This document shows positions 1 to 5,285 of a stretch of DNA of 5,348 nt, piece by piece. The notes below the pieces were generated by a model. It worked only from the letters and a program-made list of their open reading frames with translations, was not told the origin of the DNA and ran no database searches. The stretch comes from Candidatus Eiseniibacteriota bacterium. Lineage in GTDB: Bacteria; Orphanbacterota; Orphanbacteria; Orphanbacterales; Orphanbacteraceae. Made by a program: the position numbers and the translations under genes. The stretch is from NCBI GenBank assembly GCA_024276995.1, contig JAJRWB010000034.1:1-5348 (forward strand). The letters run 5' to 3'. How positions within the stretch are numbered: the first letter of the stretch is position 1; each line of letters opens with the position of its first letter.

Positions 1-99
1 AGGGCACGATCGTCCGGCTTGGGCCGACCCGCCGCGGAAGAATCCTTCAGATAAGAACGAATTCTGCCTCTTCGCAAGGTCGCTGAGGTATTGCTGCAT
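1..99 (-). CDS. Possible start of a gene under the sigma-54 promoter (partial, unrecognised)
   Basis: On the minus strand an ATG at 99-97 opens a frame that stays open for 33 codons to the window edge. It reads MQQYLSDLAKRQNSFLSEGF and continues with a Gly/Ser/Arg-rich stretch. I do not recognise the family. It is the first ATG downstream of the predicted sigma-54 transcription start, about 34 nt after it, in the same direction, so by position it is the likely first cistron of the regulated transcript. Against it: there is no clear Shine-Dalgarno just upstream, and 33 open codons are not strong evidence in GC-rich DNA. The leftward transcript could instead begin with a non-coding RNA or a later start codon. 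Confidence 0.4.
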   Translation of the reverse strand, partial: MQQYLSDLAKRQNSFLSEGFFRGGSAQAGRSCP

Positions 100-142
100 G
101 TGTTATGATCGATTTTGGCTCTTATCCGTGGATCTGGGCTAA

Positions 143-159
143 AGCAAATGCCGTGCCGG
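143..159 (-). promoter_or_regulatory. Sigma-54 (-24/-12) promoter reading leftward
   Basis: Read on the minus strand the site is CCGGCACGGCATTTGCT. The sigma-54 consensus is TGGCACG-N4-TTGCW. Here GGCACG (157-152), four bases (151-148) and TTGCT (147-143) match everywhere except the first T, which is C. The invariant GG (157-156) and GC (145-144) are exactly 10 bp apart. Transcription should start near 133 and run out of the left edge of the window. The promoter begins 44 bp past the stop codon of a sigma-54 activator gene on the same strand, which makes that activator the obvious candidate regulator. Its enhancer sites would then lie in roughly 200-350, inside the 3' end of the activator gene. 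I could not pick out a convincing repeat there. Confidence 0.82.
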
Positions 160-202
160 TTTTAGAATCGCGCTGATCAGGACGGCGGGCGGAGTGAAAA
201 CC

Positions 203-1765
203 CTACCCCTCCACCCCCAACCTCTTCAACCAGTTCGTCAGCGTCTGATAGTGCTCGAACCCGAGAAGTTCCGCGGCGCCTGTCTTCTTTCCGCCCGCCT
301 CGCGCATGCCGCGCACGAGGTAACGCCGCGCGATGTCGTCGAGCAGATCCTCCAGGTTGAAGCCGTTGCCGAGCGGCCTGTCGAGCAGGTCCACGCCCGC
401 GTGGCCTGCCGCCCGGTCCGCGCCCGTCGCACCCGCGTCACGCCTGCCCGCGCCCCCCACCACCACCGGTTGCACCGCCTCCCGCACATCGTCCTCCCCG
501 ATCTCCGCCCCGTTCGACCAGAGGACCGCCCGGGTCAGCGTATTTCTCAGTTCCCGCACATTCCCCGGCCACGAGTGATTGAGCAGCACCCGCTTCGCCC
601 CCACGGTCAGATTCTTCTCCACGTGCCCCGGCTCTGCGGCGCTCTCGCCGTTGATCTCGTCGAGGAAGTAGTCGATGAGAAGCCCGAGGTCGCCGTGGCG
701 CTCGACGATCGGCGGCAACCGGAGGACCGCCACGGCGAGCCGGTAATACAGATCCGCGCGGAACCGCTCGTCCGCCACGTCCTGCTGGAGGTTCCTGTTG
801 GTCGCGGCGATCACCCGCGCGTCGACCGGGATCTCCTCGCTCGTCCCGACACGCACGATCCGTTTCTCTTCGAGCGCCCGGAGCAGTTTCACCTGCGCCG
901 GCGCCGAAAGCTCGCCCACCTCGTCGAGAAAGATCGTCCCTTCGCCCGCCTCCTCGAAGTGGCCGCGCCGATCGCGGCCCGCGCCGGTGAAGGCGCCTTT
1001 CACGTGGCCGAACAGCTCCGACTCGATCAGGTTCTCGGGGATGGCGCCGCAGTTCACCGCCACAAACGGCTCGTCGGCGCGCGGCCCGGCGCGGTGGATC
1101 GCCCGGGCGAGGAGATCTTTCCCCGTCCCCGACGGCCCCTCGATCAGCACCGGCACCGATCGGATGGCGACCCGCTTCGCCCGCCCGAGAAGCCGCTTCA
1201 TCACGTCGCTCTGGTGGAGGATGTCGTCGAACTCCGCTGCGGCGGGCGGCGCGGCGAGGCTCATCCGCGACGCGGCCACGTCCGCCTGCATGTAAACGTC
1301 CGGGATGTACTCCATCGAGATCTCGAAAGGGATCCGCGCCTCCACCACCCCCTCCTCGGCGGACGACTGGATCAGCCGCGCGCCGATCCGCGCCTTGGCG
1401 AGGAGGACCCAGATGGCGGCCATCGCCGGTGTGCCGGGGGAGAGATGAAACGTCAGGTCGAGCGCGTGCCCGTGCTCCTCCTGCAGCCGCTCGATCTCGG
1501 CGATCGCCACGGGGTAGATTTCGCCATGCTCCGTGGGCGACGAGAGCTTCACCTTCTGGAGCCGCACGTCGAGGCCGGTTCGTTTCCTGATCCAGCGGAG
1601 GTAGCGGTCCGACTGCGCGGCGGGATAGTTCGACAGGAGCGAGACGGCGTCGAAAGGGAGGTCGTCGAGGGCGCGCGCCACCGGCCCGGGCATGCGCTCC
1701 CCCCCGTCCGACTTCATCCCCTCGAAGTCGGCGCGCCCCACCCACGACAGAAGAATTCGTGTCAT
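203..1765 (-). CDS. RtcR-like CARF-domain sigma-54-dependent transcriptional activator
   Basis: The 520-residue protein is a bacterial enhancer-binding protein: a cytoplasmic, ATP-driven activator that remodels sigma-54 RNA polymerase. Residues ~1-170 form an RtcR/CARF-like sensor, beginning with a hydrophobic strand (TRILLSWVGR) and carrying the ligand-loop motif HLSPGTPAM (~107-115) followed by LLAKAR and ARLIQSS, which resemble E. coli RtcR as I remember it. The AAA+ domain has Walker A GPSGTGKD (210-217), an intact GAFTGA sigma-54 contact loop (257-262), Walker B GTIFLDEVGE (276-285), sensor I AATN (320-323), arginine-finger segment FRADLYYRL (335-343) and sensor II WPGNVREL (399-406). 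A Gly/Ala/Asp-rich linker (~434-464) leads to a Fis-type helix-turn-helix (~478-520, with KKTGAAELLGF and QTLTNWLKRLG). There is no response-regulator receiver domain, so activation should be by ligand and not by phosphorylation. A TTG six codons upstream (1783) is in frame, but it lies upstream of the predicted transcript start, so I chose ATG 1765. In RtcR the CARF domain senses RNA-damage products and represses the ATPase until bound; the ligand here is unknown. I give no gene symbol because orthology to rtcR is not shown. Confidence 0.9.
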   Translation of the reverse strand: MTRILLSWVGRADFEGMKSDGGERMPGPVARALDDLPFDAVSLLSNYPAAQSDRYLRWIRKRTGLDVRLQKVKLSSPTEHGEIYPVAIAEIERLQEEHGHALDLTFHLSPGTPAMAAIWVLLAKARIGARLIQSSAEEGVVEARIPFEISMEYIPDVYMQADVAASRMSLAAPPAAAEFDDILHQSDVMKRLLGRAKRVAIRSVPVLIEGPSGTGKDLLARAIHRAGPRADEPFVAVNCGAIPENLIESELFGHVKGAFTGAGRDRRGHFEEAGEGTIFLDEVGELSAPAQVKLLRALEEKRIVRVGTSEEIPVDARVIAATNRNLQQDVADERFRADLYYRLAVAVLRLPPIVERHGDLGLLIDYFLDEINGESAAEPGHVEKNLTVGAKRVLLNHSWPGNVRELRNTLTRAVLWSNGAEIGEDDVREAVQPVVVGGAGRRDAGATGADRAAGHAGVDLLDRPLGNGFNLEDLLDDIARRYLVRGMREAGGKKTGAAELLGFEHYQTLTNWLKRLGVEG

Positions 1766-1774
1766 TGCGGGGAA

Positions 1775-1796
1775 ATCATACAAAATGTTTTATGAT
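1775..1796. repeat. Imperfect 22-bp palindrome within the activator promoter
   Basis: The segment has outer half-sites ATCATA and TATGAT around a 10-bp centre. Compared with its own reverse complement, 18 of 22 positions agree, with mismatches only in the inner part. It overlaps the -10 box and most of the spacer of the minus-strand promoter, where a bound dimer would block polymerase. Autorepression by the CARF activator is one possibility, but AT-rich promoter sequence also produces such symmetry by chance. Confidence 0.35.
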
Positions 1797-1803: not shown

Positions 1804-1967
1804 GGAAATCTGTGGAAACGCCGGGGGGCACAATAGGTTCCCACCCGATCCCCGTTTACCTCCTATAGTATAGTTGATACTCTTCATCATCCAGGGACGA
1901 TTCCGCATTCCGTGCGATCTCGTTCGAAACCATTCACCCGCTCCAAACGGCCCCCCGGGTGTTTCTC
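1804..1967 (+). promoter_or_regulatory. Upstream region of the beta-helix gene; promoter not resolved
   Basis: This is the remainder of the divergent intergenic region. An AT-rich patch at 1864-1881 contains two overlapping TATAGT boxes (1864-1869 and 1869-1874) and TTGATA (1874-1879), any of which could belong to a rightward promoter. None has a convincing partner at 16-18 bp. The frame of the downstream gene is open back to a TGA at 1875-1877 but has no usual start codon before GTG 1959. I see no Shine-Dalgarno, riboswitch or terminator hairpin here. Confidence 0.2.
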
Positions 1968-4900
1968 ATGCGTCTTCCGCACAAGGGATCCTTTCTGCAT
2001 CCCCTTGCGATCCTTGCCTCTCTCGGGGCGACGCCGATCGACTCGCCCAGCGGGATATTCGTGAGCAACCGCGATTCACGGGCGGACGCGACCGCGCGCG
2101 CTTGCGACCATCCTTCCGTCTTTGATGGCAGGACCGACTCGCTCCCCTTCTCGGTCAACCTCGCCAATTCGGTGGATTGTGAGGACGGCATAGCCGACGG
2201 GAGCATCCAGTACGCGGATTCATTTCAGACGATCGCCGGGTCGCTCACAGGCTTTTCCGGGGGCGGCAGCGCAGCCGCATCGGCCACTCACCTCGACACT
2301 CTGGACCGATGGAAGATTACCACCGGATCCGGCCAGGGCCTCACGGAGCTTTACTTTCAGGTTGTCGGCAAGCCGGCCCGGTTCGTATTCGACGGCAATG
2401 CGACGGGCGCCACCACCGGCCCGGAAACGGTGGCGGAGGTTTCGGTTCAGCTCCATTCGCCGGACATCGAAGACTACCTGTGGCGTATCTTCGTTCCCGC
2501 CGATTCCGCGGCCGGGCCGGTCGTGTGGCACGAAGAGGGCGAACTCCCGCCGGGGTACTACGCGATCTCCACTAGCGTAAGGGCAACGGGAGTCCCCGAC
2601 CGTGCCAGCGCGAACATCCCGCACACCGCAAGCGCCTCCGGCGGCTTCTCGTTCACATTCTCCCAGGATCCCGATCCCACCATCGTCAACTCGACCGGCG
2701 ACGCCGGCGACGAGAATCCGGGAGACGGTCTGTGCGATACGGGCGGCCCGCCCGTGAACGGACAGCCCGAGTGTACCCTCCGCGCCGCCATCATGGAAAC
2801 GAACGCGACCGAGGGTATCGCCAGGATCATCTTCGAGATCCCCGCGTCCGATCCCGGGTACAACTCTTCCGTGAAGGCGTTCCGGATCAAGCCGAAACCG
2901 CCGAAGGCGCTCCCCGAAATCACGCAGCCCGTCATCATCGACGGCACGACGCAGGCGGGCTTCGCCCCGACGGCGACCGAAAGGACCCGTTCCGCCTCGT
3001 CCGCGCCCACCGGCCCGCGCCCCACGATCATCCTCGACGGGATCGATCTCGGAAATACGAGCAACGAATTCCATGGCTTGAACATCAGCGCCGGCGGGAG
3101 CGAGGTTCGCGGCCTTTCGATCATCCAGTTCTTCGGACATGGCATCTATTTACATGAGAAGGGGAACAACAAGATCCAGGGCAGTTTCATCGGCATCGCA
3201 CCGGGGGCGACAAGCTTTGTGGAAGGCGGAAACCGACACGATGGCATCCGCATCGAGGGGATCGCCGACAATCTCATCGGCGGGTTGCCCGAAAGCGATT
3301 GCAATGTGATTTCGAACAACGGACTGAGCGGAACCGGGGGGAGCAACGTTCTTATCGTGAACGCCGCGGCAAGAAACAACACCATCATCGGCAACTACAT
3401 CGGCACGGGTGACAAGGGACGGGTCGGATTGGCCAACGTAATGGGGGTGCTGATCGACAAGGCGCCGGAGAACGCGGTGGTGAGCAACGTGATCTCAGGC
3501 AACATGTGGGGCATTGATATCGAGGGTGAGGAATCACACGATAATCAGGTCGAAGGGAACCTGATCGGCATTGGAGCCGACGGATCGCTCGCCGTGCCCA
3601 ATACGTTCGGGGGGATTCTCATCAATGGCGCTTCGTTCAACACGATCGGCGGACCGACGGCGACACCGGGAACCGCGCCGGGCAACGTGATCTCGGGCAA
3701 CCGCTCGGATGGACGAACCGCCCACGGCATCAGCATTGTCACCGCGGGGTTCGGCCACAACTCCATTCTCGGCAACCTGATCGGAACGGACCGAACCGGT
3801 AGCCTGCCGAGAGGAAACGGTGGCGCGGGCGTCCATATCGAACTCGCCGACAGCAACGACGTGGGCGGGCCCGACCCGCAGGACGCGAACGTGATCGCCG
3901 ATAATGACTCGGGCGGCGTCGTCCTCAAGTCGAACGGCAACAGCGTGGTCGGTAACTTCATCGGCACCGACATCGACGGCAATGCTCCCCTCGGCAACAA
4001 GCATTGGGGAATCCGTGTCCACCACAAATCGAACAATATGATCCGCAACAATCTGGTGAGCGGCAATGACGAGGGCGGCATCCTGATCGAAGGCGAAGAG
4101 GCGGGAGAAAACGATATTGTGGAAAACGTGATCGGAACGGACGCCAACCAGGCAACCGCCTTCGGAAACGACGGGCCCGGTATCGCAATCCAGGGGGCAC
4201 ACGAAAACCGGGTTGAAGGCGGCCTCGTCTCGGGCAACCTGGGAAGCGGTGTCGCCCTGACCGACAGCGCCTGGGGCAACACGATCGTGGACAATCTCAT
4301 CGGCATCGACCGGCGCGGCGACGAAGCGTTGCCGAACAGAGCCGACGGCGTCCACATTCTCGATTCGCCTTCGAACCTGATGGAAAACAACGCCGTGTCG
4401 GGAAACGGCGTTGCCGGTGTACACATCCAAGGTGGCAAGGCGCGGTCGAACGTTCTCTACAACAACCAGATCGGTCTTTCGTCGGACGGCCTCGACTCGC
4501 TCGGCAACGGCGAGGATGGTGTCTACCTGAACAACTCGCCGGAGAACAGGATCGAGGAGAATGTCATTGGAGCCAACGGACGATACGGCGTCTTCGTTCT
4601 CGGCGGCGCGACAAGTTCGGTTCTCTTCAAGAATATAATCGGCATGAATTCCGACCAGTCGAAGCGAATCGGAAACTCGGCGGACGGCATCCGTTCTCAG
4701 CTCAACGAGAAGACGGTGATCCAGCAGAACGTCATCGCGGCAAACGGCTTCAACGGGATCTGTATCTCGAATCACGGCACTGTTACGAACGATACGGTGT
4801 GGCTGAACACGATCTTCAGCAACGGGCAGAACGGGGTGCTGGTCACGGGGGGCACGCGAAACGTGATCCGCAAGAACAGCATCTATCAGAACGGTCTGCT

Positions 4901-5285
4901 CGGGATCGATCTCGAGCCGGTGGGGGTCACCACCAATGACGAAACCGATGGGGACACCGGGCCGAACGATCTGCAGAACTATCCTGTTTTGAGAATCGCC
5001 TTCGAGGATACATTCTCCCTGACGACGACCTTGATCGGCTATCTGAATAGCACGCCAGGCGCGACGTTCGACATCGATCTGTTCGACAATATCGACTGTG
5101 ACGCCACCGGCCGGGGCGAGGGGCGAATCTATCTCGAGACATTTCAGGTGACCACGGGGATGGACGGCGTGGGCGGATTTTCAAAGAAGCTGGACTACCT
5201 CCTGGTAAACACTTATAAGGCCCCCGGCGGTCAAGATAAAAAGTCCTCCTGCAATCAAAAGTCCTCCTGCAATCACCGCTCGTAA
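1968..5285 (+). CDS. Large exported CSLREA / parallel beta-helix repeat protein
   Basis: The 1105-residue protein is probably secreted or surface-attached; its ligand or enzymatic role is unknown. Residues 1-20 are basic then hydrophobic (RLPHKGS, FLHPLAILASLGA), a weak signal-peptide pattern. Residues ~52-235 look like a beta-sandwich, ending in LPPGYYAIS and GFSFTF strands as in several exported-protein domains. Residues ~239-290 carry a CSLREA-type segment (VNSTGDAGDENPGDGLCDTG, then CTLRAAIMETNA at 269). Residues ~300-980 form a right-handed parallel beta-helix of PbH1/NosD-like rungs with recurrent NVISGN, GIxIxG and IGTDxxG motifs. Residues ~1004-1085 (NYPVL...LIGYLNSTPGATFDIDLFDN) match the domain that usually closes this family, but the usual final ITATATDPxGNTSEF-like strand is missing and a KSSCNQ-KSSCNH tail ends the chain. 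There is no visible LPXTG, PEP-CTERM or type IX sorting signal. GTG 1959, three codons upstream, is an alternative start; neither has a Shine-Dalgarno. No pectate-lyase-type catalytic site is evident. Confidence 0.85.
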   Translation: MRLPHKGSFLHPLAILASLGATPIDSPSGIFVSNRDSRADATARACDHPSVFDGRTDSLPFSVNLANSVDCEDGIADGSIQYADSFQTIAGSLTGFSGGGSAAASATHLDTLDRWKITTGSGQGLTELYFQVVGKPARFVFDGNATGATTGPETVAEVSVQLHSPDIEDYLWRIFVPADSAAGPVVWHEEGELPPGYYAISTSVRATGVPDRASANIPHTASASGGFSFTFSQDPDPTIVNSTGDAGDENPGDGLCDTGGPPVNGQPECTLRAAIMETNATEGIARIIFEIPASDPGYNSSVKAFRIKPKPPKALPEITQPVIIDGTTQAGFAPTATERTRSASSAPTGPRPTIILDGIDLGNTSNEFHGLNISAGGSEVRGLSIIQFFGHGIYLHEKGNNKIQGSFIGIAPGATSFVEGGNRHDGIRIEGIADNLIGGLPESDCNVISNNGLSGTGGSNVLIVNAAARNNTIIGNYIGTGDKGRVGLANVMGVLIDKAPENAVVSNVISGNMWGIDIEGEESHDNQVEGNLIGIGADGSLAVPNTFGGILINGASFNTIGGPTATPGTAPGNVISGNRSDGRTAHGISIVTAGFGHNSILGNLIGTDRTGSLPRGNGGAGVHIELADSNDVGGPDPQDANVIADNDSGGVVLKSNGNSVVGNFIGTDIDGNAPLGNKHWGIRVHHKSNNMIRNNLVSGNDEGGILIEGEEAGENDIVENVIGTDANQATAFGNDGPGIAIQGAHENRVEGGLVSGNLGSGVALTDSAWGNTIVDNLIGIDRRGDEALPNRADGVHILDSPSNLMENNAVSGNGVAGVHIQGGKARSNVLYNNQIGLSSDGLDSLGNGEDGVYLNNSPENRIEENVIGANGRYGVFVLGGATSSVLFKNIIGMNSDQSKRIGNSADGIRSQLNEKTVIQQNVIAANGFNGICISNHGTVTNDTVWLNTIFSNGQNGVLVTGGTRNVIRKNSIYQNGLLGIDLEPVGVTTNDETDGDTGPNDLQNYPVLRIAFEDTFSLTTTLIGYLNSTPGATFDIDLFDNIDCDATGRGEGRIYLETFQVTTGMDGVGGFSKKLDYLLVNTYKAPGGQDKKSSCNQKSSCNHRS
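3186..4676 (+). repeat. Nine-module IGTDxxG...LGN beta-helix repeat array
   Basis: Within the beta-helix gene the motif [F/Y/L/V/Q/I]-I-G-x-x-x-x-G-x(3-5)-GN recurs with first codons at 3186, 3396, 3561, 3777, 3957, 4128, 4296, 4467 and 4635. The spacings are 210, 165, 216, 180, 171, 168, 171 and 168 nt. The last five modules are therefore very regular at 56-57 residues, about two and a half helix turns, while the first ones are longer and irregular. Between them lie GIxIxG, NxIxGN and VISGN rungs. The repeats have diverged at the DNA level, which suggests old duplication and not recent expansion. Confidence 0.8.
5239..5274 (+). repeat. Perfect 18-bp tandem duplication at the 3' end of the beta-helix gene
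   Basis: Two identical adjacent copies of AAAGTCCTCCTGCAATC preceded by A (5239-5256 and 5257-5274) lie 8 bp before the stop codon at 5283-5285. The unit is six codons long, so it stays in frame and yields KSSCNQ then KSSCNH. Perfect identity of the two copies indicates a recent slippage or duplication event. Confidence 0.9.

Follow-up and report, generated by a model that had tools for sequence, protein, structure and literature searches.

Which genes does a sensor-type sigma-54 activator control when a sigma-54 promoter lies directly behind its own stop codon? The locus described here raises this question in a stretch of 5,348 nucleotides (the window), which is a complete contig (C15) of a genome assembled into 81 contigs (3.76 Mb, about 96% complete). 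The initial annotation had proposed that a CARF-AAA+-HTH activator, followed on the same strand by a sigma-54 promoter reading out of the window, governs an inducible RNA-damage or defense module. The best explanation, which we consider quite probable, is that the window carries the regulatory head of an inducible antiphage operon, made up of the activator and its stop-codon sigma-54 promoter; the sensor protein probably turns on the antiviral genes that follow it, using a start signal located past its own end.

Domain architecture of the activator

The activator gene lies on the minus strand at positions 203 to 1765, with its ATG at 1765 and its TAG at 205 to 203, and encodes 520 amino acids plus the stop, as defined by the open reading frame, a PADLOC match, and ortholog alignment. 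Its AAA+ sigma-54 interaction domain (725 to 1219, minus strand) matches Pfam Sigma54_activat (PF00158; 2.8e-67), and a Fis-type C-terminal HTH (257 to 340, minus strand) is indicated by a weak Pfam HTH_8 match together with ortholog alignment. Walker A and B, the GAFTGA loop, and the HTH are intact and conserved across the aligned orthologs, and the YQTLTNWL segment of the HTH is invariant in five of them. The PADLOC model RtcR_PspF2--CARF_AAA_HTH matched at nearly full length (596.8 bits; residues 9 to 525, model positions 2 to 481 of 481), and the protein aligned end to end with its orthologs. Judged from its sequence, the activator belongs to the PADLOC RtcR_PspF2 group (PDLC01995), with which it has in common the whole-length match, the three domains, and the defense gene neighbors of its relatives, but from which it differs in a 17- to 19-residue insertion (linker before the HTH) and in the IS-like element that comes next downstream in its own genome.

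When the first 180 residues were modeled with AlphaFold (pLDDT 83), the N-terminal 147 residues adopted a predicted CARF fold, which places the putative sensor domain at about residues 1 to 147 (positions 1325 to 1765, minus strand). The best Protein Data Bank match of the modeled N terminus was Csm6 (Z 16.4, 140 residues at 2.4 Å), followed by VC1899, Csm6', Can2, Cad1, and Csa3; the leading matches are CARF proteins. Pfam, PADLOC, the predicted CARF fold, and the intact motifs together bear out the three-domain activator of the initial annotation.

After CARF strand 4, the protein reads LSPGTPAM, with proline at the place of the basic residue in the window and most orthologs and serine in one ortholog (L085); none of them is basic there. 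The window's CARF domain fails the cyclic oligoadenylate sensor motif [DN]x[ST]xxx[RK] (basic residue after strand 4), as that motif is given in PMC4012209. According to the same source, RtcR too mostly lacks the basic residue, and a different ligand is possible. The cyclic oligoadenylate-sensing proteins Csm6, Can2, and Csa3 share the CARF fold (Z 12 to 16), but they carry K or R after strand 4 where the window's activator has proline, and the predicted output of the activator is sigma-54 transcription rather than nuclease activity.

A -10-like element, TATGAT (1775 to 1780, minus strand), lies 15 nt before the activator ATG and is a possible sigma-70 promoter. TATSAT occurs 12 to 15 nt before the activator start at 7 of 17 loci, and a sigma-70 scan upstream of the activator gave no full match; the element is a hint that the activator mRNA may be constitutive and have almost no leader. 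About 27 sigma-54 activators are encoded in the genome. Among phage records, matches to the activator were partial and fell mostly in the generic AAA+ part, some of them in proteins annotated as rtcR.

Defense genes behind the activator in relatives

The orthologs compared came from the same bacterial family (L062 and L063; 55 to 56% identity), from betaproteobacteria (L059 and L060), from plasmids (L076 to L082, all seven records in which the CARF part is encoded), and from contigs classed as viral (L084 to L089). Culturable hosts are represented among the orthologs by Azotobacter chroococcum pAcX50d and Vitreoscilla filiformis pVF1. Same-strand defense-type genes follow the activator in 12 of the 13 close relatives whose downstream genes were examined, a count that takes L086 and L087 as one and leaves out L082 (Vibrio, no annotation) and L084 (which ends just past the activator). 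Downstream genes were assigned with HMMs for L062, L063, L085, L089, and part of L059, by reading translations for L060, L103, and L104, and from the annotation as deposited for plasmids.

Type I restriction-modification (R-M) genes lie behind the activator in L060, L077, L079, L080, and L081, and also in the distant relatives L103 and L104. Genes for a vWA protein, a kinase, and a superfamily 1 helicase follow it in L059, L076, and L078, joined by a PP2C phosphatase in the latter two; all six annotated plasmid orthologs head either type I R-M or vWA-PP2C-kinase-helicase operons. The same-family ortholog L063 heads an operon for Hma (HmaA, 1683 bits; HmaB, 1193; HmaC, 754), a PADLOC candidate system according to PMC8565338. 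Co-directional behind the activator of L062 (5863 to 10569) are an ADP-ribosyl-glycohydrolase, a UvrD helicase with a PD-(D/E)XK nuclease, and a type III-like methylase. On the L085 contig (9573 to 16467), which is classed as viral, the genes behind the activator encode PDC-S14, a reverse transcriptase of DRT type 1 (1395 bits), and a type I restriction subunit; a kinase lies behind the activator of L089, and the downstream genes of L086 and L087 fell into no recognized defense family.

The genes of L086 (9661 to 11340) and L087 (9671 to 11629) follow a CARF activator with its sigma-54 site on contigs classed as viral, have no PADLOC or Pfam match, and are candidates for unknown defense genes; an endolysin-like gene is found near those of L087. 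A small DUF4258/BrnT-like gene, annotated in L078 (15733 to 16068) and recognized by eye in L059 (near 10090 to 10416) and L084 (7340 to 7657, minus strand), sits beside the activator, in agreement with the BrnT-like toxins noted at CoCoNuT loci.

The sigma-54 site and the adjoining IS-like element

The sigma-54 site, CCGGCACGGCATTTGCT, occupies positions 159 to 143 of the minus strand and begins 44 nt past the activator stop TAG. It has the form GG-N10-GC with one mismatch to TGGCACGNNNNTTGCW, agrees with the -24/-12 consensus at 11 of 12 positions, and fits the TGGCACG-N4-TTGCW context with one mismatch. From there it reads straight into a repetitive element, the end of which fills positions 1 to 141 and the border of which lies 1 to 2 bp beyond the site.

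Window positions 1 to 142 recur at the end of contig C32 (1 to 141, 100%) and near the end of contig C24 (130674 to 130829, 99%), and all three copies diverge abruptly at 142-143. The border is formed by an 18-bp terminal inverted repeat, TAGCCCAGATCCACGGAT (141 to 124), which with one or two changes also starts a different sequence, one that contigs C17 (31419 to 31530) and C68 (3926 to 4198) share at their ends and in which a transposase-like frame opens. With three right-end and two left-end copies, the repeat has the anatomy of an insertion sequence present at least three times, and we refer to it as IS-like. Contig breaks coincide with ends of the element. The C17 and C24 flanks have AGCT in common, a possible 4-bp target duplication, so these two ends may represent one insertion. 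An IS1380-like identity is no more than a lead, since neither the Pfam models nor the plasmids gave a match to the 47-aa transposase-like fragment of the element.

Because the repeat starts 1 to 2 bp past the promoter and the contig ends inside it, any leftward genes lie beyond the assembled sequence and are unreadable in this genome. No contig could be paired with the window. A search of the genome for N6_Mtase (PF02384) returned nothing, an HmaA query returned weak helicase matches and no ortholog, and no recognizable defense genes were seen by eye near the opposite end of the element on C17 and C68. The target operon may have been displaced or lost in this genome.

It is possible, though we think it doubtful, that the locus is a degenerate remnant, in which the insertion cut the activator off from its operon and the promoter now reads only into the element, leaving a switch without function in this strain. 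The nearness of the repeat border to the promoter, the multicopy nature of the element, and the negative searches for N6_Mtase and an HmaA ortholog would all fit such a history, but the reading frame of the activator is unbroken, no motif in it is damaged, and the insertion left the -24/-12 elements as they were, suggesting either a recent insertion or continued selection. Moreover, with a genome about 96% complete and a contig that is unlinked, absence of the operon does not follow from those searches.

Position of the site across relatives

CCGGCACGGCATTTGCT is the sole match of its kind in the window; of 200 dinucleotide-shuffled versions, 5 contained one, with all positions and both strands counted. 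The 3.76-Mb genome contains GGCACGNNNNTTGCW 5 times, which puts the chance of a match in any one single-strand stretch of 200 nt at about 1e-4. Since this pattern is not enriched genome-wide over a reversed control (5 versus 7 occurrences), the case for the site rests on its position. We scored sites with a weighted sigma-54 score (maximum, 17) and counted as good a site of at least 14 within -25 to +60 of the activator stop. Of the 16 family members, the window among them, 10 had such a site, compared with 2 of the 34 other sigma-54 activators (Fisher p 3.8e-5, or 2.7e-4 once close pairs are collapsed) and with 1.4% of random windows. L085, which was not among these 16, has a site scoring 14 at +3. 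Elsewhere the site lies farther on, at 80 to 534 nt past the stop and ahead of the next gene in L059, L078, L086, and L087, and at +99 to +138 in the more distant CARF activators L103, L104, and L106; L089 has no good site.

A chance origin of the -24/-12 match is unlikely, and we give little credence to the reading in which the match is accidental and the activator acts at other places in the genome: the reversed control and the shuffles lend it some room, but such a match is rare in a stretch of 200 nt and falls at the one place where orthologs also carry one. The near-consensus, co-oriented promoter initially annotated at 143 to 159 holds up, its position is conserved in orthologs, and the sigma-54 gene on which that annotation had made its reading depend is present as a single rpoN (Sigma54_DBD, 210.7 bits). 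We looked across 17 loci for a shared dyad (arms of 4 or 5 bp) that might serve as the activator's binding site, covering the 250 nt ahead of the gene, its final 250 nt, and the 200 nt behind it; none was clearly commoner than in shuffles.

Comparison with RtcR

That the activator is a true RtcR, regulating an RNA-repair (RtcB/RtcA) operon that is here co-oriented, is scarcely credible: it shares 33% identity with E. coli RtcR over about 415 residues and has RtcR as its closest NCBIfam model, but the RtcR equivalog NF038308 scored 351.5 bits against a cutoff of 650, the PADLOC RtcR model scored 199 bits against 597 for RtcR_PspF2, no rtc genes lie beside the orthologs with annotated or inspected neighbors, and a search for RtcB (PF01139) that matched in 9 of 14 control genomes had no match in this 96%-complete one. 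Identity as RtcR was rejected on the sub-cutoff score and the genome without RtcB.

The E. coli and Salmonella RtcR proteins have in common with the window's activator the CARF-AAA+-HTH architecture, sigma-54 dependence, and a CARF domain that lacks the basic residue usually present after strand 4. They differ in being divergent from rtcBA and tied to it, whereas the operons of the activator's relatives are co-oriented and the window's genome is without rtcB; the C-terminal HTH does not align. The contrast that had been drawn between a divergent rtcR in E. coli and a co-oriented target here is correct, and co-orientation is the rule, already published, in the RtcR_PspF2 sister group. Of the "RNA-damage or defense" module, the defense part is strongly supported by the operons of the relatives, and the RNA-repair or RNA-damage part is not supported, with no RtcB found in the 96%-complete genome and no rtc genes beside the orthologs examined.

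A model of the switch and its relation to known systems

For the inducible antiphage operon that we favor, the activator would be expressed constitutively, at a low level, from a promoter of its own, and its CARF domain would sense an infection-linked nucleic acid signal (by analogy, the same kind of signal here). As expected from the family, ligand binding would lead the AAA+ domains to form a ring, the ring would remodel sigma-54 RNA polymerase at the -24/-12 site behind the activator's stop codon, and the co-oriented defense genes would then be transcribed; the position of the promoter is observed directly. In this genome, a transcript from the site would now start inside the IS-like element because the element lies so close downstream. 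The element may have uncoupled the switch, and the original defense genes would be found beyond it or would have been lost.

The linkage of such activators to defense is already published. RtcR-like proteins that are unlinked to rtc and often linked to R-M systems have been described and proposed to activate downstream genes via sigma-54 (Makarova et al. 2014, PMC4012209), and RtcR homologs have been shown to head co-directional superoperons of CoCoNuT and type I R-M systems, at their 5' end (Bell et al. 2024, PMC11090510). Those loci and the relatives compared here have in common that a CARF-sigma-54 activator gene comes first in a co-directional defense operon. In contrast to what the accessible text of PMC11090510 describes, the relatives of the window's activator also carry Hma, type III-like R-M, and DRT1 payloads, and the sigma-54 promoter, which is not named there, is here located at the activator's stop codon. 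In the accessible portions of PMC4012209, PMC11090510, and PMC8565338, we found no description of this promoter position or of Hma and DRT1 payloads with this activator. A sigma-54 promoter at the activator's stop is a modest general addition.

Whether the activator and its stop-codon promoter form a portable inducible cassette, placed before unrelated defense systems and answering to one infection signal, seems to us evenly balanced; this reading spans Hma, type I and type III-like R-M, DRT1, and vWA-PP2C-kinase-helicase systems in distant bacteria, on plasmids, and on contigs classed as viral. If it is true, any unknown gene behind the cassette is a predicted infection-induced defense gene, and a CARF activator followed by a -24/-12 site at its stop becomes a sequence rule for finding inducible defense genes of no known family. 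Many defense systems are studied as though permanently active; finding one conserved sensor-plus-promoter head in front of many different ones would mean that costly defenses are kept silent until a signal arrives, and it gives a concrete promoter to test.

Remainder of the contig

The rest of the window is largely taken up by a divergent gene (1959 to 5285, plus strand) encoding a 1,108-aa parallel beta-helix repeat protein (NosD/Beta_helix, with a weak CSLREA match). Near the end of this gene, close to the contig end, the short direct repeat AAAGTCCTCCTGCAATC is present in two copies.
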